Source: Clostridia bacterium (lineage in GTDB: Bacteria; Bacillota; Clostridia; Monoglobales; Monoglobaceae). Taken from it: 64,000 nucleotides of DNA. Position 1 is the stretch's first letter. The number at the start of each line of letters is the position of its first letter. The translations under genes and the position numbers were made by a program. Below the pieces are notes generated by a model. It made no database searches and had not been told where the DNA came from. It saw nothing but the letters and a program-made list of their open reading frames with translations. The stretch covers positions 1-64,000 of the forward strand of contig JAGAUW010000004.1 of NCBI GenBank assembly GCA_017620615.1, given 5' to 3'. This document shows, piece by piece, positions 3,885-57,500 of this stretch.

Positions 3885-5213
3885 TTATTTATTCCTGCTT
3901 TTTGCCATTGGGACAAGCTTTTCAAAATCGCTCCACACAAAATATGTAACACCATTTTGGCTGTCAGCAGTATTAAAGATATATACGTCACCTGAGTTTA
4001 TAGATACGTCAACAGTTTTACAATCTTCAAATTTTCCCTCACCATCATAATACACGCATATACAACGCACCATCATGGATTTTGCAGTATTGTTGTATAC
4101 CGCCGAACAAATCCCATCATTACCTGTTTTAATAGGTGAAATAAAGGATTTATAACCACCTATTACTTTTTTCGCCGCTGCTTCACAGTCGATGATGCCA
4201 TAACCATAATATTTATCATATTCTTCATCATCATTCCTCACAGCCGTCTCCGCAAGAATAGCGGCAAACTGCTCACCGTCTATGGAGCTATCCATACATT
4301 TTGCTACAGCCGCAAGTCCTGAAACATGAGGCGCCGCAAAAGACGTGCCCGACACAAATCCGCCAAAAATAGGAACTTCCTCGCCCGGAGCCACCACAAA
4401 TACACTTTCATTATAATTTGAAAATGTCGACCATTCGCCATTTTCGTTCACCGACCCTACACCAATGACCTCATCATACGCCGCGGGATAATTCAGCGTT
4501 GAATCTTCATCATTTCCAACCGATGCTACTAAAATAACACCTTTTTCCGCCGCATATTTAACCTTTTCATGGAACAACTGAACAGCAAGGCTTTCCTTTT
4601 CACCCGCAAAAGTAAAGCTCATGTTTATCACATCACAGTCATAAGCATCAACCGCATCCTCAACGGCATCCAGAAGTTCTGACACAAGGGTGTCATGCCC
4701 ATCATCAAAGCACTTAAGAGGCACAAACTGTGCATCATATGCCACACCATAAGGAGATGCAATCAGCGCGCTCACGATTGTTCCGTGCAACGTACTCGTG
4801 TTATCTGTTGTATCGGTGTTTTTATCAAGATAATTGTAGCCAGTAAGAACATTGCTCACATTTCCCAGAAACCCTGTATCAATAACTCCTACCTTTACAT
4901 TCTTCCCTGTGCAGTTTAGTTTTTCGGGGAACTCAACCTTTATATCTGCCAAATTCCACGACCTTGAATCAAGGTTCACAACATAGTCTATGCCGTAATC
5001 TGCAACTATCCCGGCATCAATATATTCAAGAAGTTCATCCTTTGTGGCGCTGCAATAATCTTTTATTTCACTGTCTTCTCTTGATGAAAAAAGCTGCGCA
5101 GAATCATTGAATTTTACCAGATATCTTTCTTCAGCATCTGCCCCATGCACACAAATTCCAATCATCAAAAGAAACACTGTAAATAAAAGCATTTTAAACT
5201 TCATCTTAATCAT
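3885..5213 (-). CDS. Secreted subtilisin-like serine protease (S8)
   Basis: 442-aa exported endopeptidase of the subtilase family. An N-terminal signal peptide (basic start MIKMKFK, hydrophobic core, probable cleavage near residue 25) is followed by a short prodomain-like region (to about 95). In the catalytic domain the triad is Asp112 (GVIDTG), His143 (LHGTIVSALI) and Ser291 (SGTSFAAPH), with oxyanion Asn234 (SVGND). About 85 residues follow the fold and look like a small beta-rich tail. It likely acts outside the membrane in protein turnover or processing. The gene is convergent with the deacetylase remnant and follows a small membrane protein gene on the same strand (18 bp apart). Substrate unknown. 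Confidence 0.9.
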   Translation of the reverse strand: MIKMKFKMLLFTVFLLMIGICVHGADAEERYLVKFNDSAQLFSSREDSEIKDYCSATKDELLEYIDAGIVADYGIDYVVNLDSRSWNLADIKVEFPEKLNCTGKNVKVGVIDTGFLGNVSNVLTGYNYLDKNTDTTDNTSTLHGTIVSALIASPYGVAYDAQFVPLKCFDDGHDTLVSELLDAVEDAVDAYDCDVINMSFTFAGEKESLAVQLFHEKVKYAAEKGVILVASVGNDEDSTLNYPAAYDEVIGVGSVNENGEWSTFSNYNESVFVVAPGEEVPIFGGFVSGTSFAAPHVSGLAAVAKCMDSSIDGEQFAAILAETAVRNDDEEYDKYYGYGIIDCEAAAKKVIGGYKSFISPIKTGNDGICSAVYNNTAKSMMVRCICVYYDGEGKFEDCKTVDVSINSGDVYIFNTADSQNGVTYFVWSDFEKLVPMAKSRNK

Positions 5214-5231
5214 AATAAAGCAACTCCCGTT

Positions 5232-5897
5232 TTATTCTTCTTCTAAAACAACTTCTTCAGCAATTTCTTCTGCAACAGTCACAATCTCATCATCTGTAGC
5301 AACTTCTGCATCTGCAAGTATCTGCTCCCCCGCACTTTCAGCTAAGTAAGCTTTATTTGCACACTTAAGAAGGCAAATAGCCTCTGCCAGCGGCACAATC
5401 AGGCTGAGAATAAAATACTTAACTGCCTTTTCTGGCGCAGTTGACTCAAACACTTTAAAAAGGCACACCATCTGACACCCCACAAGAGCCGATCCAGTCA
5501 AACCACCAACAATCATCCACAGATACATTCCAGCAGTACTCATCCAGAATTCGGCACTGATACGATATGGGTCATCTATCATTTCTTCCGCCATCACACC
5601 TAAAAGTAAGACATAAATCACCACGCAAACAAAAGTAATACCCAAAAGTACAGGAAGAACAACCCTCCACTTTCTTTTTATTCCATTTTTTCCGTCATAA
5701 CCATCAACAATGCTTCCCACAGTCCAGTAATTTACACCGGGAATCCAAGAAAGCCATGGTTTTTTTATCTGTCCAATCTTTGCAAGCCTGTAAAGTCCAA
5801 GGGATGATATTACATAATCAATAACACACAAGCCAAACAGCCCTAAAAATATTGATATAACACCAAACATAACTAAAAATGCAAAAAAATCATTCAT
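5232..5897 (-). CDS. Multi-pass membrane protein of unknown function
   Basis: 221 aa. The start was chosen at the ATG preceded by AAAGGAGG with 8-nt spacing (MNDFFAFLV); the frame opens 17 codons earlier without a ribosome binding site. It has about four hydrophobic segments (about 1-25, 80-105, 120-150, 160-185). A conserved-looking loop, KPWLSWIPGVNYWTVGSI, resembles loops seen in uncharacterised clostridial membrane proteins. The tail is strongly acidic (Glu-rich, ending VVLEEE). It sits directly upstream of the subtilase and may be co-transcribed with it. I cannot assign a role. Confidence 0.7.
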   Translation of the reverse strand: MNDFFAFLVMFGVISIFLGLFGLCVIDYVISSLGLYRLAKIGQIKKPWLSWIPGVNYWTVGSIVDGYDGKNGIKRKWRVVLPVLLGITFVCVVIYVLLLGVMAEEMIDDPYRISAEFWMSTAGMYLWMIVGGLTGSALVGCQMVCLFKVFESTAPEKAVKYFILSLIVPLAEAICLLKCANKAYLAESAGEQILADAEVATDDEIVTVAEEIAEEVVLEEE

Positions 5898-9075: not shown

Positions 9076-9167
9076 AGGTCCTGTCCCTCACAAAAGCAAA
9101 ATAAAAATACTCTCCCTATTCTAATGCAATTATATCTCAACCCATCACCTTTGTCAAGACTTAGACC

Positions 9168-9677
9168 TTACTTTTTTCTCAGCATAATCCGCGCTTTTTT
9201 CATCCTCAGCCTCGCCTTATCACTGCTTATTTTCGCCACCTGTTTTGCACGCCTTATCTTCTGCCCTGTATACCACATAACAATATGTATGGGTCTCTTT
9301 AACGCCTTCATAATAAGTGATATGGGGAAAAGCAAAATCTTTAAGACTCTTCGTGTGATTTCAACCATCCATTTAACCAAAAATGTACCGGCATTTAAAA
9401 GTTTGTTTTTCACGATCAGAGCATAGGAAACGGCACCTATCCCCCAGCCGATAAACCCCTGCCACCTGATTTCACCGCTGTTTCTGAGGTATGCCGCAAC
9501 GAATAAGAGGACCCCCGCCAGCGTCATAAACAGTATGTCCTCAATATTCACCACCGCATCGGTGGGTCTATGGATTCTGCGGCTTACTCTCAGAATGTCA
9601 TAAAGAAATGCAGCACAAACTCCCGCCGCAAAGCTAAAAAAGAAAAAAACCATTTCTGACCAAACCGTCGAATACAT
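9168..9677 (-). CDS. yabQ: Spore cortex biosynthesis protein YabQ
   Basis: 169-aa membrane protein with helices at about 8-28, 45-65 and 75-92, the YabQ-type motif ILRVSRRIHRP in the first cytoplasmic loop, and a basic C-terminal tail. In Bacillus YabQ is localised to the forespore membranes and required for cortex assembly. Lies between yabP and divIC in the usual order. Confidence 0.9.
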   Translation of the reverse strand: MYSTVWSEMVFFFFSFAAGVCAAFLYDILRVSRRIHRPTDAVVNIEDILFMTLAGVLLFVAAYLRNSGEIRWQGFIGWGIGAVSYALIVKNKLLNAGTFLVKWMVEITRRVLKILLFPISLIMKALKRPIHIVMWYTGQKIRRAKQVAKISSDKARLRMKKARIMLRKK

Positions 9678-9688
9678 TTTTTCTCTCC

Positions 9689-9970
9689 CTATCTGAAAAT
9701 TTTGCCAAAAAAGCTTCCTTTTTCACTTTTGTGACCCTCGGCATATTCAATGCTGTCTATTTCGCCCTCTATTTCCATCTCGCCCTTTTCCACATTGAGT
9801 CGATTTATTCTCATTTCAGCACCTTTGATGGTCATCACACCCTCGGTGGTATACGCAACAATTTTATCCTCGTCAAAGCTGTCAACATCCTCTACCCCTG
9901 AAACCGTCATATTTCGTCTTTCCTCCATAGTAACGTTGTGAATCATATCCTCGCGTCTTCTTTCTTCCAT
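9689..9970 (-). CDS. yabP: Sporulation protein YabP
   Basis: 93 aa, YabP/YqfC family. The N-terminus is HNVTMEERRNMTVSGVEDVDSFDE-like and the core GVMTIKGAEMRINRLNVEKG is beta-rich. Family members are made in the mother cell during sporulation. Leads the yabP-yabQ-divIC-S1 cluster; 11 bp separate it from yabQ. Confidence 0.92.
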   Translation of the reverse strand: MEERRREDMIHNVTMEERRNMTVSGVEDVDSFDEDKIVAYTTEGVMTIKGAEMRINRLNVEKGEMEIEGEIDSIEYAEGHKSEKGSFFGKIFR

Positions 9971-50856: not shown

Positions 50857-51873
50857 CTACTCCCTTTCTGCAGAAATTGCCACTGCGTGAGCAACCGACG
50901 GTATTGATTCCCCCTGAAGTGTGGATGTCGGGCTAAGTAGGGCTCCCGTCCCCATAAAAAGTACATTTTTAAGCTCGCCAGCGCGGATTCTGTCCATAAT
51001 ATATCCGCAAAGAGTAATAGCACCACATCCACAACCCGAGCCGCCTGCGTGCATATCCTGTTTCTGAACATCAAAAATCATGCAGCCGCAATCGTCGTAA
51101 TTTCCCCCGACATCAAAGCCCTTTTCACGCATCAAATCAACAATAATTGACTTTCCTACCGTTCCCAAGTCCCCCGTCACTATAAGGTCATAAAAATCCG
51201 GATTTCTCCCGGTATCTTCAAAATGCGCTGCCAAGGTGTCCGCCGCCGCAGGCGCCATTGCCGCTCCCATATTGTTGGCATCCTTAACGCCTAGATCCAC
51301 AACTTTTCCCGATGTAAAGTGTGTTATATATGGTCCATTTCCACTTTCCGAAAGCACCACCGCCCCCGAGCCGGTAACCGTCCACTGCGCCGTAGGCGTC
51401 CTCTGTCCGCCGTATTCAAGAGGGTTTCTGTACTGACGCTCAGCCGTGCAAAAATGGCTGGAGGTCACCGCAACAGAAAGGTCACCATACCCTCCGTCGA
51501 TACTCATAGCCGCAAGTCCCATGGTCTCTGCCATGGTGGAACACGCCCCATACACTCCCAAAAAAGGAATGTCAAACGCCATAAGCCCAAAAGTAGAGCT
51601 AATACACTGATTAAGCAGGTCCCCCGCAAAAATATATTTTACGTCCTTTGCGTCCACCTTTGCCTTTTCAAGGGCACGTCCCACAGCCATCCTTTGCATC
51701 TTGCTTTCCGCTTTCTCCCAGGTGTCCTCGCCCCACTCGGAGTTCTCCATAATAATATCAAAGTGCGAAGCCAAGGGCCCCTCACCCTCTTTTTGTCCTG
51801 CCACCGCTGCTGTAGATAAAAGGCTCACCGCTTTTGAGAATTTCACCGTTTGTTTTCCAAGCCGTTTTTCCAT
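50857..51873 (-). CDS. spoVAD: Stage V sporulation protein AD
   Basis: 338 aa, thiolase-like fold that in Bacillus binds Ca-dipicolinate. Recognisable parts: FLGVYGACSTMAET (about 129-142), DLIVTGDLGTVGKSI, DDCGCMIFD and HAGGSGCGCGAI. It lacks a working thiolase reaction and serves as a substrate-binding subunit of the SpoVA channel. Lies between spoVAC and spoVAE, 3 bp and 12 bp apart. Confidence 0.96.
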   Translation of the reverse strand: MEKRLGKQTVKFSKAVSLLSTAAVAGQKEGEGPLASHFDIIMENSEWGEDTWEKAESKMQRMAVGRALEKAKVDAKDVKYIFAGDLLNQCISSTFGLMAFDIPFLGVYGACSTMAETMGLAAMSIDGGYGDLSVAVTSSHFCTAERQYRNPLEYGGQRTPTAQWTVTGSGAVVLSESGNGPYITHFTSGKVVDLGVKDANNMGAAMAPAAADTLAAHFEDTGRNPDFYDLIVTGDLGTVGKSIIVDLMREKGFDVGGNYDDCGCMIFDVQKQDMHAGGSGCGCGAITLCGYIMDRIRAGELKNVLFMGTGALLSPTSTLQGESIPSVAHAVAISAERE

Positions 51874-51885
51874 AATGACACCCTC

Positions 51886-52335
51886 CTATTTCCCAAATCC
51901 CAGCACATAATAAATAAGCCCCAAAAGGATTGACGCATTTATTCCGTATACCAAAACAGGTCCTGCAATGGTGAACATCTTTGCAGCAAGCCCCAAAACA
52001 TACCCCTCCCGCTTAAACTCAATGGCAGGGGATACCACCGCATTGGCAAAGCCCGTTATAGGCACAAGGGTTCCGGCCCCTGCATACTTTGCAAGCTTGT
52101 GATAAAGATTAAGCCCCGTAAAAAGCGCCCCCAAAAATACCATAGTGATAGGAACAGCCGTCTTGACACTTTCTTCATTAAGACCAAATACCGATTTATA
52201 AATTTCCCCAAAGCCTTGTCCAACGGTGCAGATAAGCCCGCCAATCACAAATGCAAACAACATATTTCGAAAAAGCTTGCTGTTTGGTGATTTTTTCTGC
52301 ACATAATCTAAGTATTCCTGCTTTGTATAATCCAT
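51886..52335 (-). CDS. spoVAC: Stage V sporulation protein AC
   Basis: 149-aa membrane protein with about four helices; motif NMLFAFVIGGLICTVGQGF and GTLVPITGFANAVVSPA. In Bacillus SpoVAC behaves as a mechanosensitive channel component. First gene of spoVAC-AD-AE; other spoVA members and sigG are not here. Confidence 0.95.
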   Translation of the reverse strand: MDYTKQEYLDYVQKKSPNSKLFRNMLFAFVIGGLICTVGQGFGEIYKSVFGLNEESVKTAVPITMVFLGALFTGLNLYHKLAKYAGAGTLVPITGFANAVVSPAIEFKREGYVLGLAAKMFTIAGPVLVYGINASILLGLIYYVLGFGK

Positions 52336-52416
52336 AAAAGCTCTCTCCTTATTTTTCTGTTTCAGTTATTATCTGTATTTTTTGTTTTTGTATTCATCAA
52401 AAATAACGCAAAAAAA

Positions 52417-52464
52417 GGCTCCCTTGTGTAAAGGGAGCTGTCACGTAGTGACTGAGGGATTGTT
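52417..52464 (+). repeat. Double-hairpin repeat, copy A (solo)
   Basis: Hairpin 1 GCTCCCTT-GTGT-AAAGGGAGC, hairpin 2 GTCAC-GTA-GTGAC, then TGAGGGATTGTT. It lies between spoVAC and malQ. It is the same element as copies B and C around the DUF559 gene. Confidence 0.88.
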
Positions 52465-52489
52465 ATAAATATCCCCTATCCAAAATATT

Positions 52490-53923
52490 TTATCTGTTAT
52501 AAAGTTCATTAAGGCGTCGGAATCGTTTTTTATCAATTCCGTCAATCTGCTCCTTGGTGACACGATAACGCCAGTTGTTTTCGGCACGCCCAGGGAAGTT
52601 CAGACGAGTGTCTGCGCCATAACCCAAAATGTCCTGAATGGGGAAAATAACTGTCCCCGCACTGCTTGCCCAGATTGTGCGGAGCATAGAGCTGAGCCCA
52701 TTCCCCCAATCCTCTGATGTATAACCGCAATATTCAAGCATCTCACGGCGGTTTTTTTCATCAAGTTCCCAAAGGTAGCCAAGGAGTGTGTTGTTGTCGT
52801 GAGTTCCGCTGTATGCAATGCAGTTTTCTTTGTAGTTGTGAGGTTTGTGGGTTGATTCCCCGCCAAAAAATCCAAACTGAAAAACTCTCATACCAGGGAA
52901 ACCACTTTCCTCTACCAAATCCACAACCTCCTTGGTTATGTCACCCAAGTCCTCTGCAATTATCAGTTTTTTACCTGCTACCTTGGAAATTTTACTTAGG
53001 ATATCCATACCGGGTCCTTTCACCCAATGACCATTTTTTGCGGTTTCTTCATCCCTTGGCACCTCCCAGAAGGATTCAAAGGCACGGAAATGGTCAATCC
53101 GAAGACCATCAAAAAGCTCAAGTGCCGATTTCACGCGGTCACACCACCACTTATATCCCGTTTCTTTCATTTTTTGCCAGTTGTATAGTGGGTTGCCCCA
53201 AAGCTGACCATCCTCTGTGAAATAATCAGGTGGCACACCTGCAACCTGCGTGGGATAGCCCTTTTCATCAAGCAAAAATAAATCGCGGTCGAAATAAACA
53301 TCCGAGCTGTCAGGGGATACATAAATCGGCATATCCCCAATCAGCTCAACGCCGTGTTCATTGGCATATTTTTTTATCTCTTTCCACTCTTCAAAAAATT
53401 CATACTGAATAAATTTCCATCCAAAAAGTATATCTTGATCAATGCCGGATTCAGTCCATTCCTGCCACGCCTTTTGGTCATTGACAGTTTTCAGCGCCAT
53501 AAACTTGCAAAAGTTCTCTATGTAAGGTCTTTGCGATATAAATTCTTCGATTTCCCGCCTGTCATTCACCCGTTTTGATGCTGTCATAAGCAAAAAGATT
53601 CGTTCCTCCCGAAGCCTTTCAAATTCACAAAGATATGGTGTGGTTTGTCTTGCACCCTCAAGCTCCTCTTTGGTTATCAAGCCCTTTTCAAAAAGATTTT
53701 CAAGGTCAATGAAATACGGATTTCCCGCAAAGGTGGAATAAGATTTGTAAGGCGAGTTGAAATCATCCACAGGGCAAAAGGGCAGCACCTGCCAGTACGA
53801 AAATCCGCACTCCCTCAAAAAATCAACGAACTCCCGTGCCGCCTTTCCAAATCCGCCACAGGAATAATCACCCCAAAGGGATGAAATATGCATAAGTACT
53901 CCGCTTTTTCGTTTCAAAGTCAT
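52490..53923 (-). CDS. malQ: 4-alpha-glucanotransferase
   Basis: 477-aa GH77 amylomaltase that transfers alpha-1,4-glucan segments in maltodextrin or glycogen metabolism. Opening RKSGVLMHISSLWGDYSCGGFG; active-site regions GDMPIYVSPDSSDVYFDR, VAGVPPDYFTEDGQLWGNP, GLRIDHFRAF (nucleophile Asp) and IIAEDLG are intact. Length normal. No other glycogen genes nearby. It lies between two direct copies of the double-hairpin repeat. Confidence 0.95.
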   Translation of the reverse strand: MTLKRKSGVLMHISSLWGDYSCGGFGKAAREFVDFLRECGFSYWQVLPFCPVDDFNSPYKSYSTFAGNPYFIDLENLFEKGLITKEELEGARQTTPYLCEFERLREERIFLLMTASKRVNDRREIEEFISQRPYIENFCKFMALKTVNDQKAWQEWTESGIDQDILFGWKFIQYEFFEEWKEIKKYANEHGVELIGDMPIYVSPDSSDVYFDRDLFLLDEKGYPTQVAGVPPDYFTEDGQLWGNPLYNWQKMKETGYKWWCDRVKSALELFDGLRIDHFRAFESFWEVPRDEETAKNGHWVKGPGMDILSKISKVAGKKLIIAEDLGDITKEVVDLVEESGFPGMRVFQFGFFGGESTHKPHNYKENCIAYSGTHDNNTLLGYLWELDEKNRREMLEYCGYTSEDWGNGLSSMLRTIWASSAGTVIFPIQDILGYGADTRLNFPGRAENNWRYRVTKEQIDGIDKKRFRRLNELYNR

Positions 53924-53952
53924 GGCCCCCCATTTGTTATTTTTTTGTATTA

Positions 53953-54002
53953 GGCTCCCTTGTGTAAAGGGAGCTGTCAGCTCTGCTGACTGAGGGATTG
54001 TT
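53953..54002 (+). repeat. Double-hairpin repeat, copy B (left end of the DUF559 unit)
   Basis: Identical to copy A except for hairpin 2, which is GTCAGC-TCT-GCTGAC. The DUF559 stop codon and its last seven residues (QSLSQQS) are encoded inside it. Confidence 0.9.
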
Positions 54003-54345
54003 TTATCATATTATCTATATATGTACACACGCCCTCAAAGTTTCTCATAACATCAGAATTAGATATTCTAACAACCGTTATGCCGTATCCTTTTAAATAT
54101 TCTGTTCTTTCTTTATCATATTCATTCCCATTATTTTCATAATGTTGTGATCCATCAAGTTCAATAACCAAATTCGCTTTTGCACAATAAAAATCCGCTA
54201 TATATCCGCCTAATATTTTTTGTCTTATGAAGCGTATGGGATAATTCCTCAAAAAGTCATACCAAAGATGTCTTTCTTCTTTCGTCATATTCTTTCTCAA
54301 ACTTTTTGCAAGAGGCACTAATTTTTTATTGTGTTTTCTTTCCAT
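53977..54345 (-). CDS. DUF559 endonuclease-like protein
   Basis: 122-aa basic protein of the DUF559 family, related to Vsr-type PD-(D/E)XK nucleases. The core GGYIADFYCAKANLVIELDGSQH holds likely catalytic Asp51, Glu62 and Asp64, with His68. The N-terminal basic region (RKHNKK, then LRKNMTKEERHLWYDFLR) resembles the DNA-contacting start of the family. The start codon ATG at 54345 follows GGAGGG, which belongs to the flanking repeat. Function unproven; the flanking inverted repeats suggest it moves or maintains them. Confidence 0.88.
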   Translation of the reverse strand: MERKHNKKLVPLAKSLRKNMTKEERHLWYDFLRNYPIRFIRQKILGGYIADFYCAKANLVIELDGSQHYENNGNEYDKERTEYLKGYGITVVRISNSDVMRNFEGVCTYIDNMIKQSLSQQS

Positions 54346-54346
54346 C

Positions 54347-54395
54347 TACAATCCCTCCACCGCAAGCGGTCCCCCTCCCTTTACACAAGGGAGGC
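54347..54395 (-). repeat. Double-hairpin repeat, copy C (right end of the DUF559 unit)
   Basis: Minus-strand copy: hairpin 1 CCTCCCTT-GTGT-AAAGGGAGG, hairpin 2 ACCGC-TT-GCGGT, then GGAGGGATTGTAG leading into the DUF559 start codon. Stem bases differ from A and B in a compensated way. Confidence 0.88.
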
Positions 54396-54492
54396 TAAGT
54401 ATTATTTTACCACACTTAAAAAACTTTCGCAACATCCAATTATTTCAAGTTTATGAAAGTAATGCCTCATACGTTCCACAGCAAAAGAAAAA

Positions 54493-54528
54493 AGACACAA
54501 AAAAAGAGACGACCGAAGTCGTCTCTTT
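54493..54528 (-). terminator. Strong terminator of the S-layer gene
   Basis: Perfect 11-bp stem AAAGAGACGAC/GTCGTCTCTTT with a TTCG loop on the minus strand, ending in seven T. Confidence 0.93.
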
Positions 54529-54557
54529 AATTTTTAGGTTAAATCAGATTACGGAAA

Positions 54558-57500
54558 TTATTCCTTTGTAATCTTGTTAGCACCCTTAATGATAACTACG
54601 TCAGTAACTCTGCCGTCATATTCTCTTACGTATACATGGTCAGCATACTTGAGAGCGTTAGCCTGGCTTACACCAGTAGATACAGTAGAACCAACTGTTA
54701 CTTCAAATGTTTCTGCGCTCATAGAAGCATCATAGAGGTTTTCGAAGTACTTGTAGTTAGCATCTGAACCGTTCTTAACAACGAGTGCTCTACCTGTAGC
54801 ATCAACAACATAAACATTTTCAGCTCTTGAAAGCTTGAAAAGACTTGTTGTTGTTGCAGGGTTATAAGGAGCTGTTGCTGATGTGTTGTCTTTTCTTGAA
54901 AGTTCAATTTCTGTTGAAGTTTCCTTGTAAGAAACAACCTTACCACCGGCAAATACTTCCTTAGCCTGATACAAGTTGGTGTATGCAGCAGCAGTTGCAT
55001 CCGCTGTTGAAGCACTTGTGAAGTCTCTTACATCAGCAGCAAAGTCATAAACCTTTGTGAGGTTTGTGATAGTACCAGCTGAACCAACCTTAACCTTAAC
55101 GATGTCACCAGCGTTGAGACCACTGATTGTTGTAGCAGCATCAGCTGTTGTATCAGCTGTTACTTCTTCACCACCGAGGAGGTATGTGATGTTGTAGATA
55201 GGTTCACCATCTTTGTTTGTGCCGTTACCAACTTCTTTGATAACAGCAATGTTAGATGTTGTGCTTGTCTGAATTGAAGCATATGTTACAACTATAACGT
55301 TTGTATCTTCAGCCTTCTTGTCAGCATAAGCAAGGTTTACAGCGTATACATTGTCGTGATCAAGGTCAGCAAGTGTACCAACTGAGCAGTTAGCAGCATC
55401 ACCGTCAACGATGAATACGATTGTATCAGCATCTACGTAACCAGCAGTTGTATCAAATTTGCTGTTTTCAGCATCATATTTAACACTACCTGTAGACATT
55501 GAAGATGTCTTGAACTTTGTTGTGTCGTGACCAGCTTCTGTAATCTTTGTGATATAACCAGCAGCATTTGTTACATACTGAACAACTGTGTTCTTAGAAC
55601 CAAGGATTGCGTTCCATTCGTCATAACCACCTGTTGAAGGTGAAGTACCTACTGAAGAAGCGTTGCTGTTGTCATCATTTACAACCCAAGCTGTGAGATC
55701 GAAATCGATATCAACTGTGCTTGCATCTTCAAATCTTGCGTTGCTCTTTACAGGCATAATCTTTACGCCATCAGCTGTAAGCATCTGAACCTTGAGGTCA
55801 GCAGTTGTACCACCGAAAGCAGCTTCTTCAACAGCAACACCAAGAACGTAACCATAGTTAGCAGCAGTACCACCAGCAAGAGCACTGTCTTCGATGAATG
55901 CAGCAATCTTACCAAACTGGTCAATGTAGAGTGTACCACCTTCGTTTACGTCGAGATCTGCTCTCTTGTAAGCACCTTCAGCTACATCATACCAAGCATC
56001 ATTAACTTTGAAAGCTGTACCTGTTGCAGATGTTGTTGAATTCTTCTTAGCTGTGATTGTTCCAACAACCTGGTTAGCAACAACTTCAGCTACGATATAC
56101 TTAGCACTTGCTGTGTCAGCGTATACTGAGAGAACATCAAATTCGTTAAGAGCAGAAGCATCGATAACTTCGCCGTCTTTCTTGATAACTACAACATATG
56201 TTTCATCATCAGCGTCGAGTTCGATGAATTTGTCACCAAAGAGAGGAAGTGCATTGTAGAAGTTAATTCCATCTTCAACAACCTTCTTAACAACACCTGT
56301 TTCAGCACGGTCAACGATAGCAAGATCATAACCATTTACTTCGTCGTTGTCGATAAGAGTAATGCTACCGCCATAGAGTGAACCAGCAAGGCTGTTAAGT
56401 GATGTAAGTGTACCACCGTTACCGTTGAGAACAACATCGATACCAGCTTCAACTTTTGCAGTTGTTACATCATTGTCGCCATCTTTATAGTACTTAACGC
56501 ATTCTTTACCAACTGTTGTGTCGTGACCTGCAAATACATCAAGACCGATAACGAGTTCGTCATTTCTGTTTGTATCAATAGCGATTGAAAGGAGTTCAAA
56601 ATCATCCTTTGCATTAGCCTTTGTGTAAGCGATAACGCTGCGGCCAAGGAGACCATCAACATCAATTTCGCCTACAAGGTATTCATTGTTAGCCTTGTTA
56701 ATGAATTTTTTGTTTTCTGTGCCGTAATCGTCAACAACAGCGATCCAAACTTTTGATTCTTCTGTTGTGTCAATGTTCTTTGTGCCGTAAATGCTTGTGT
56801 AGTCGTTAGCGTAGAGGATACCTCTGATCTTAACGTAACCAAGGTTTTCGCTCATAAGAGTTTTGTAACCCTTTGTTGTTGTAACAGGAGCGTAACCACC
56901 AGCACCACTGTTCAAAGTAGCATCCCAAACGAATTCTGTTGTAAGTTCGCCTTCAGCGATCTTGTACTCTACTTCACCATTTGTGTTCCAGCCAGCCTGA
57001 ACCATCAAAGGTGTGTCAAGAGCGTTTTCGAGAAGCTGAGCAACTGTACCACGATTAGCTTCCTGACCTACTGCTGCGTTAGCAACTGCGAGTGATACAT
57101 TGTATCTCTGAGCTGCTGCGAGGTAACCTGTGGGGTAACCACCGTTCTTTTCAGCAAAAGGTGTGTAACCAAGTGTAGCCATAACCATCTTTACAGCCTG
57201 TTCATAGAGAACGGGATCTTCGGGACCGAAGTTTCCGTCGCCATAGCCGTTGATGATGCCCATGCCAGCAGCGTTTGCGATGTAACCAGAAGCCCAGTGG
57301 CTTGCAGGAACGTCAGCAAAGCCTGTGCTTGCAGCAGCCTTAGCTGTTTCGCCATAACCCTGGATTCTAGCGATAAGAGCAGCCATTTCAGCTCTTGTTA
57401 CGCCATCTTCGGGCTTGAATGTGCCGTCTTCGTAACCTGTAACGATTCCGAGTTTGTTGAGTGTTTCAACTGCTTCGTAATAAGCGCTGTCTTCAGCAAC

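Follow-up and report, generated by a model that had tools for sequence, protein, structure and literature searches.

The DUF559 nuclease gene described here, which is enclosed between two inverted double-hairpin repeats, is probably a minimal autonomous mobile element whose sole protein is a single-domain nuclease of the Vsr/EDxHD type. It lies in a window of 64,000 nucleotides from a Clostridia bacterium of the family Monoglobaceae (contig JAGAUW010000004.1, positions 1 to 64,000). Gene and repeats behave as one unit, which is present or absent at a given site, moves between genomes and leaves gene-less derivatives, and the two have diversified together. In the literature searched, which excludes most subscription journals, there is no paper tying DUF559 to repeats, and this kind of minimal mobile element seems not to have been described before.

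Read on the minus strand, the unit consists of a 48-nt repeat, the dinucleotide AG, the gene beginning with its ATG, and an inverse 49-nt repeat (Table 1). Repeat matches and the PF04480 coding region place it exactly where a preliminary description of this DNA had put it. The gene is intergenic and is interlocked with both of its repeats, as that description had proposed: the right copy supplies the ribosome binding site, a GGAGGG lying 7 nt ahead of the ATG, and the left copy encodes the last seven residues and the TGA. An internal ribosome binding site is seen in most 5' copies of the repeat. The first 28 nt of the repeat are identical at 52416 and 53952, positions 54375-54398 form an inverted match of the repeat start at 96%, and the 26-nt core of the repeat, allowing three or fewer mismatches, has a chance expectation of 0 in 100 shuffles. 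The ends are indeed inverted relative to each other, but they are two distinct subtypes, GG..GC and GC..GG, rather than copies of a single repeat. When folded with DNA parameters, both end repeats and a solo copy nearby form two adjacent hairpins (z from -4.0 to -5.7 relative to shuffles), and a covariance model finds five copies in the window genome.

Table 1. Positions in the window of the DUF559 unit, its parts and the solo repeat
Feature	Position	Strand	Basis
Whole unit (5' repeat, DUF559 gene, 3' repeat; minus-strand reading)	53953..54395	-	inverted ends
DUF559 / PF04480 nuclease gene, 122 aa, Vsr-like fold	53977..54345	-	profile match, structure model
3'-end repeat, GG..GC subtype: hairpin 1, hairpin 2, purine tail	53953..54001	+	
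5'-end repeat, GC..GG subtype: hairpin 1, hairpin 2, purine tail GGAGGGATTGT	54348..54395	-	
GGAGGG ribosome binding site, inside tail of 5' repeat	54353..54358	-	sequence
Solo copy, GG..GC subtype, malQ 3' intergenic region	52417..52463	+	covariance model

The solo copy had been described as fitting a non-autonomous derivative of the unit. The copy is real, but it is weak evidence for a derivative, because most of the non-autonomous forms consist of two inverted repeats and measure 113-151 bp. It adjoins an A-run and reads on the minus strand as a hairpin followed by a T-run. At the same site, the sister species G007 carries a repeat of another type (GGCTTCCCC..GATGAGGTG), and the sister species G002 has a small hairpin only; the spot is occupied independently in the window genome and in G007.

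The product of the gene is a Vsr-like nuclease of 122 residues, in agreement with its first assignment. It matches the PF04480 profile (E 2.5e-30; 105 bits against a cut-off of 20.6), and its AlphaFold model (pLDDT 85) shows the Vsr fold, with DALI-scale Z values of 15.6 for NGO0050, 14.3 for I-Bth0305I (3r3p) and 11.8 for Vsr (1cw0); I-Bth0305I is matched at the level of sequence as well (E 1.9e-4). Six residues (E24, D51, E62, D64, H68 and D77) are invariant in 13 homologues, and these acidic and histidine positions are the likely active site of the predicted enzyme. Values of dN/dS from 0.03 to 0.21 among relatives indicate that the protein is under purifying selection. Both Vsr and YcjD have been assigned to the PD-(D/E)XK superfamily (PMC1189080).

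The structure of the repeat was investigated in 80 A-type copies, namely those with the TTGTGTAAAG loop. They divide into a 3'-end subtype GGCTCCC..GGGAGCTGTC..GACTGAGGGATTGT (GG..GC; 48 copies) and a 5'-end subtype GCCTCCC..GGGAGGTGG..CGGAGGGATTGT (GC..GG; 32 copies), and there are no mixed-subtype copies among the 80. Within units, the GC..GG subtype usually stands ahead of the gene and the GG..GC subtype behind it. When the two stems were compared across 36 distinct repeats, 84 cells were doubly changed, versus 26.6 in shuffles, and the covariation score was 0.413, versus 0.118 when shuffled and at most 0.113 when slid. Consequently, it is the pairing itself that is kept. The sequence of hairpin 2 varies freely; its commonest loop is GAA (96 of 387), mostly closed as GC-GAA-GC. 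The mini-hairpin formed by d(GCGAAGC) has an unusual stability for DNA, and this form of hairpin 2 hints at a role as single-stranded DNA. Rfam contains no family matching the repeat.

A mirror purine tail is newly noticed in this analysis and was absent from the preliminary description. The tail that follows hairpin 2 mirrors the purine arm found in hairpin 1, as in the pairs AAGGGAGG / GGAGGGAT, AGGGGAGG / GGAGGGGT, AAAGGAGG / GGAGGATT and GGAGAAG / GATGAGG, and in Deinococcus aetherius GGGAGAGGGG / GGGGAGAGGG; the GGAGGG-bearing tail of the 5' repeat in the window mirrors its hairpin 1 arm as well. In a strand-aware test over 34 distinct arms, with the tail placed by hairpin 2 and T scored as a match for A, the mirror match was 5.44 of 7, compared to 4.52 (sd 0.16) for permuted tails, and 0 of 5000 permutations reached the observed value. 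The direct (non-mirror) orientation of the tail is also above chance (4.85 versus 4.49, p 0.016), and thus low sequence complexity contributes to the mirror signal. A test that mixes both palindrome strands gave a weak result (p 0.005 versus shuffled, 0.08 versus the direct orientation). The geometry of arm and tail would permit an antiparallel purine-motif triplex (G*GC, A*AT, T*AT), and judging from these sequences the repeat may form one.

The repeat is dispersed well beyond the window genome, as the preliminary description required. Among 118 relatives, DUF559 is present in 36 and the covariance model detects dispersed repeats in 48. These include all 26 relatives with a strong DUF559 match, which together hold at least about 650 copies (up to 50 candidates were scored in each genome), versus 22 of the 92 others (Fisher p 3e-13, with genomes treated as independent); the 22 may be explained by incomplete MAGs, by loss or by another mover. 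DUF559 homologues also have the flanks that this description required: of 128 loci, 56% are surrounded by inverted flanks, defined by an inverted match score of 14 or more between the upstream and downstream flank, whereas the figure for 488 control ORFs is 0.6%. By this score, a clear two-sided inverted flank is missing from about 40% of the DUF559 loci, and by eye many of those below the threshold show a repeat on one side. The same layout extends to other phyla: it surrounds DUF559 in four Deinococcus plasmids, Azospirillum lipoferum, Sphingobium, Sphingomonas, Pseudanabaena and Sinorhizobium meliloti (score 104), and a GGGGGACC-hairpin-GGTGGAGGG core is common to Clostridia and Sphingomonadales.

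Several other arrangements have been observed near DUF559 genes. In a rabbit-gut Clostridia MAG (L131), tandem and alternating repeat arrays closely resembling BIMEs occupy positions 4119-5700 and 9126-9700, on both sides of the DUF559 gene, with periods of 55, 74, 169-170 and 314 bp. A promoter-like repeat (GCATCTAAACCTTATGTGTCGCAATATGGATATGTCGAA..TGTCGAA..AGGAG), whose TGTCGAA boxes resemble Spo0A boxes, adjoins many units on either side; it is found at unit flanks of G007, G025, G066, G100, L115 and L138, with L209 (960-1140) and L038 as examples. Unit flanks of G007 and G008 also contain other dispersed intergenic repeats of ~230 bp, rich in GATATCGA-like motifs and with up to 60 query matches per genome. 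A gut phage contig (L206, MT835756.1) has a DUF559 gene with inverted hairpin flanks at 195-533 (score 28), and this contig, filed as phage, is a possible vehicle of the unit between hosts. On a plasmid of Synechocystis sp. B12 (L196), a DUF559 gene adjoins a BREX PglX methyltransferase gene. The ycjD gene of E. coli K-12 (L283; also L207) has a long palindrome ahead of it and a purine/pyrimidine hairpin relic at its end. Across E. coli, the interval from sapF to fabI contains either ycjD or the eef operon (locus covered in 3361 of 5426 complete genomes), and the operon has been reported at this alternative allele (PMC12817139); the presence or absence of ycjD was consequently rejected as a simple empty site.

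The type of repeat is tied to the type of nuclease. When repeat types A, B and C are mapped at 72 labelled loci onto a tree of 117 nucleases, built from a short alignment with many forks open, 3 changes suffice, versus 25.5 after shuffling (minimum 22). One genome, G100, has three nucleases in three clades, each with the repeat type of its clade, and in another, G025, two of two nucleases match in this way. Linkage alone could yield such co-diversification, and the result therefore supports repeat recognition without proving it. The earlier inference that the nuclease acts on the repeat now has this backing, and the enzyme may act on it, perhaps by cutting.

A different explanation for the association is that the repeats are spread by a RAYT or IS200-type Y1 transposase, or by some other factor, and that DUF559 simply rides inside the pair. 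Y1_Tnp genes are present in 62 of the 118 relatives, and the 22 genomes that hold repeats in the absence of a strong DUF559 match would be accounted for. However, there is no Y1_Tnp match in G000 (the window genome, 81.6% complete), G007, G031, G032, G095 or G100, all of which carry repeats and DUF559 units; although some of the repeat-carrying genomes are incomplete MAGs, this makes RAYTs unlikely movers. In addition, the GTAG tetranucleotide of REPs (PMC8266576) is absent 5' to the palindrome in the 80 DUF559 repeat copies, where the bases before hairpin 1 are AAA-rich, and repeat type tracks the clade of the nuclease. Passage of the gene as a mere rider is thus considered unlikely.

Evidence that the unit itself moves comes from comparison of sites. 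A sister species, G002, whose malQ flank is 90% identical, has no unit at the window site, while both the window genome and G007 have it there; the empty site that the preliminary description called for does exist. This is the only precise interspecies empty site, and because its edge is AT-rich the junction can be placed only to within about 10 bp. The joined flanks of five G007 units, which are repeat-rich, gave no further clean junction in the genus. Near-identical units occur in G001/G006, of one family, and in G100, of another, and their dS of 0.18-0.22 points to recent transfer. In the hpa cluster of Deinococcus, one species has the unit to one side of the oxidoreductase gene and a second species has it to the other side; the nucleases are 87.5% identical. 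Over 52 units, there is no target-site duplication beyond chance (mean direct repeat 0.85 versus 0.58 for mismatched flanks, p 0.054; one direct repeat of 5 bp or more, versus 1.05 expected), a result that argues against ordinary staggered DDE-type insertion. GTATTA flanks the window unit at both ends; this is one isolated case and, given these 52 units, was discarded as a target-site duplication.

The paired elements (n=52) are mainly of two sizes: those that contain the gene measure 443-449 bp, and those that lack it 113-151 bp. In G007 (L210), a 448-bp unit and a 119-bp derivative lie 1 kb apart; they share the same unusual 5' repeat, and the linker of the shorter form resembles the first codons of the gene, so that it is most simply a deletion product. 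The claim that gene and repeat travel as one is sustained by presence and absence at the site and by the 443-449 bp class, but it needs qualification, since in some subfamilies 75-190 bp beyond one repeat move along with the unit. The outer ends are thus not in every case formed by the repeats. A gene-less family of ~225 bp, a repeat pair with about 75 bp outside one end (L208, L217, L212, L220), occurs with 86-95% identity in G000, G001 and G007 and also in G100, which is distant from them. "Scar" hairpins (GGCTCCC..GGGAGGC) joining the outer halves of both end types are rare, with 4 exact cases (G100:C53:13558, G100:C60:28979, G101:C41:20523 and G066:C30:127669). These hybrids are possible footprints of excision or deletion, and they could also be due to plain deletion between short direct repeats.

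It has also been considered that the REPIN-like pairs are the older component and that a free-standing DUF559 gene homes into them by cutting empty ones. Among solved structures, NGO0050 and the homing endonuclease I-Bth0305I come closest in fold, and empty pairs of 113-151 bp are common. However, the short L210 pair derives most simply from its gene-bearing neighbor, and what is missing in G002 is the whole unit, not merely the gene; homing into older pairs is accordingly judged quite unlikely. It is very unlikely that the repeats are host terminators or translation starts used for regulation by the gene of a Vsr-like repair or restriction enzyme. In favor of this reading, the ribosome binding site comes from the 5' repeat, hairpin 1 beside A/T-runs looks terminator-like, and Caulobacter VsrA triggers a response to DNA damage in cells that lack ScmA methylation (PMC12907096). 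Against it, such flanks occur at 0.6% of control ORFs, hundreds of repeat copies lie away from DUF559, the presence of the unit differs between sister species, and units occur in many genomic contexts. For some DUF559 genes, such as Caulobacter VsrA, a role linked with cytosine methylation has been reported (PMC12907096), and this counts against the mobile-element reading.

Taken together, these results have led to a model for the unit as a mobile element whose repeat ends double as the ribosome binding site and stop codon of the nuclease gene. In this model, the hairpin pair would be exposed during replication as a folded strand, possibly clamped as a triplex by the mirror purine tail, and the nuclease would recognize its own repeat type. 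It would then nick or cut at the foot of the repeat or in the adjoining A-run, after which host replication or recombination would copy the unit to another AT-rich intergenic site. The short paired derivatives might be moved in trans by the same nuclease, as REPINs are thought to be moved by RAYTs. A broader proposal, offered tentatively, is that DUF559 units make up a class of transposable element in their own right, present in several phyla, in which a lone Vsr-type nuclease reads the purine-motif triplex or double hairpin of its own repeat and mobilizes both units and gene-less pairs in the absence of a known transposase.

If this is true, the short list of enzymes known to move repetitive elements would gain a nuclease class. 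The REP-like lifestyle, with a repeat, a cognate enzyme and a non-autonomous crowd, would then have arisen more than once. If the mirror tail forms a triplex, a DNA triplex would be serving in nature as a recognition signal. The widespread DUF559 family (COG2852), of which E. coli K-12 also has a member in ycjD, would gain a concrete and testable role, and the frequent short palindromes at the start and end of DUF559 genes would be explained.

Among known systems, the CGTC-tagged REPs resemble the DUF559 repeats in being palindromic and in occurring in several phyla, and they are said to have no dedicated transposase (PMC3733652). However, the CGTC tag, the A-T first stem pairs and the CCA-type tail of that description are not in the DUF559 repeat consensus. 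MITEs of IS elements are comparable in that an internal-deletion derivative can lie beside an autonomous copy (448 and 119 bp in L210), but DUF559 units have double-hairpin ends and no target-site duplications. For a Thiomargarita MITE, an enzyme of the PD-(D/E)XK_2 (YhgA-type) family has been suggested as parent (PMC4853749), a nuclease family different from DUF559. Through PF04480, the window protein belongs with the Vsr/YcjD/DUF559 (COG2852) nucleases, for which the available part of PMC1189080 describes neither flanking repeats nor mobility. I-Bth0305I (EDxHD) shares the nuclease fold and is an enzyme of the same superfamily that mobilizes its own gene; it carries extra DNA-binding regions and is part of a mobile group I intron (PMC3943268), whereas the DUF559 protein consists of one domain, its gene lies outside any intron (Rfam gave no intron family for 51800-54600) and the unit has many sites.

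The closest parallel, drawn already in the preliminary description, is with REP elements and their RAYT transposases, and it holds for the build of the unit. As in REPtrons, a cognate gene lies between inverted copies of short palindromic repeats; as with REPINs and BIMEs, there are paired inverted derivatives and tandem arrays (L131); and the location is intergenic, with each repeat type tied to its own gene. In contrast, the REPtron enzyme is a Y1 HUH (tyrosine) transposase rather than a Vsr-fold PF04480 protein, a REP has one hairpin rather than two hairpins and a mirror purine tail, and the DUF559 repeat overlaps the start signal and stop codon of its gene. Because it departs from REPtrons in both of their defining features, the enzyme and the GTAG tag, the unit is not a REPtron. 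It fits among the elements made of a repeat plus a cognate enzyme, and a separate class would be warranted should the nuclease turn out to move the unit.
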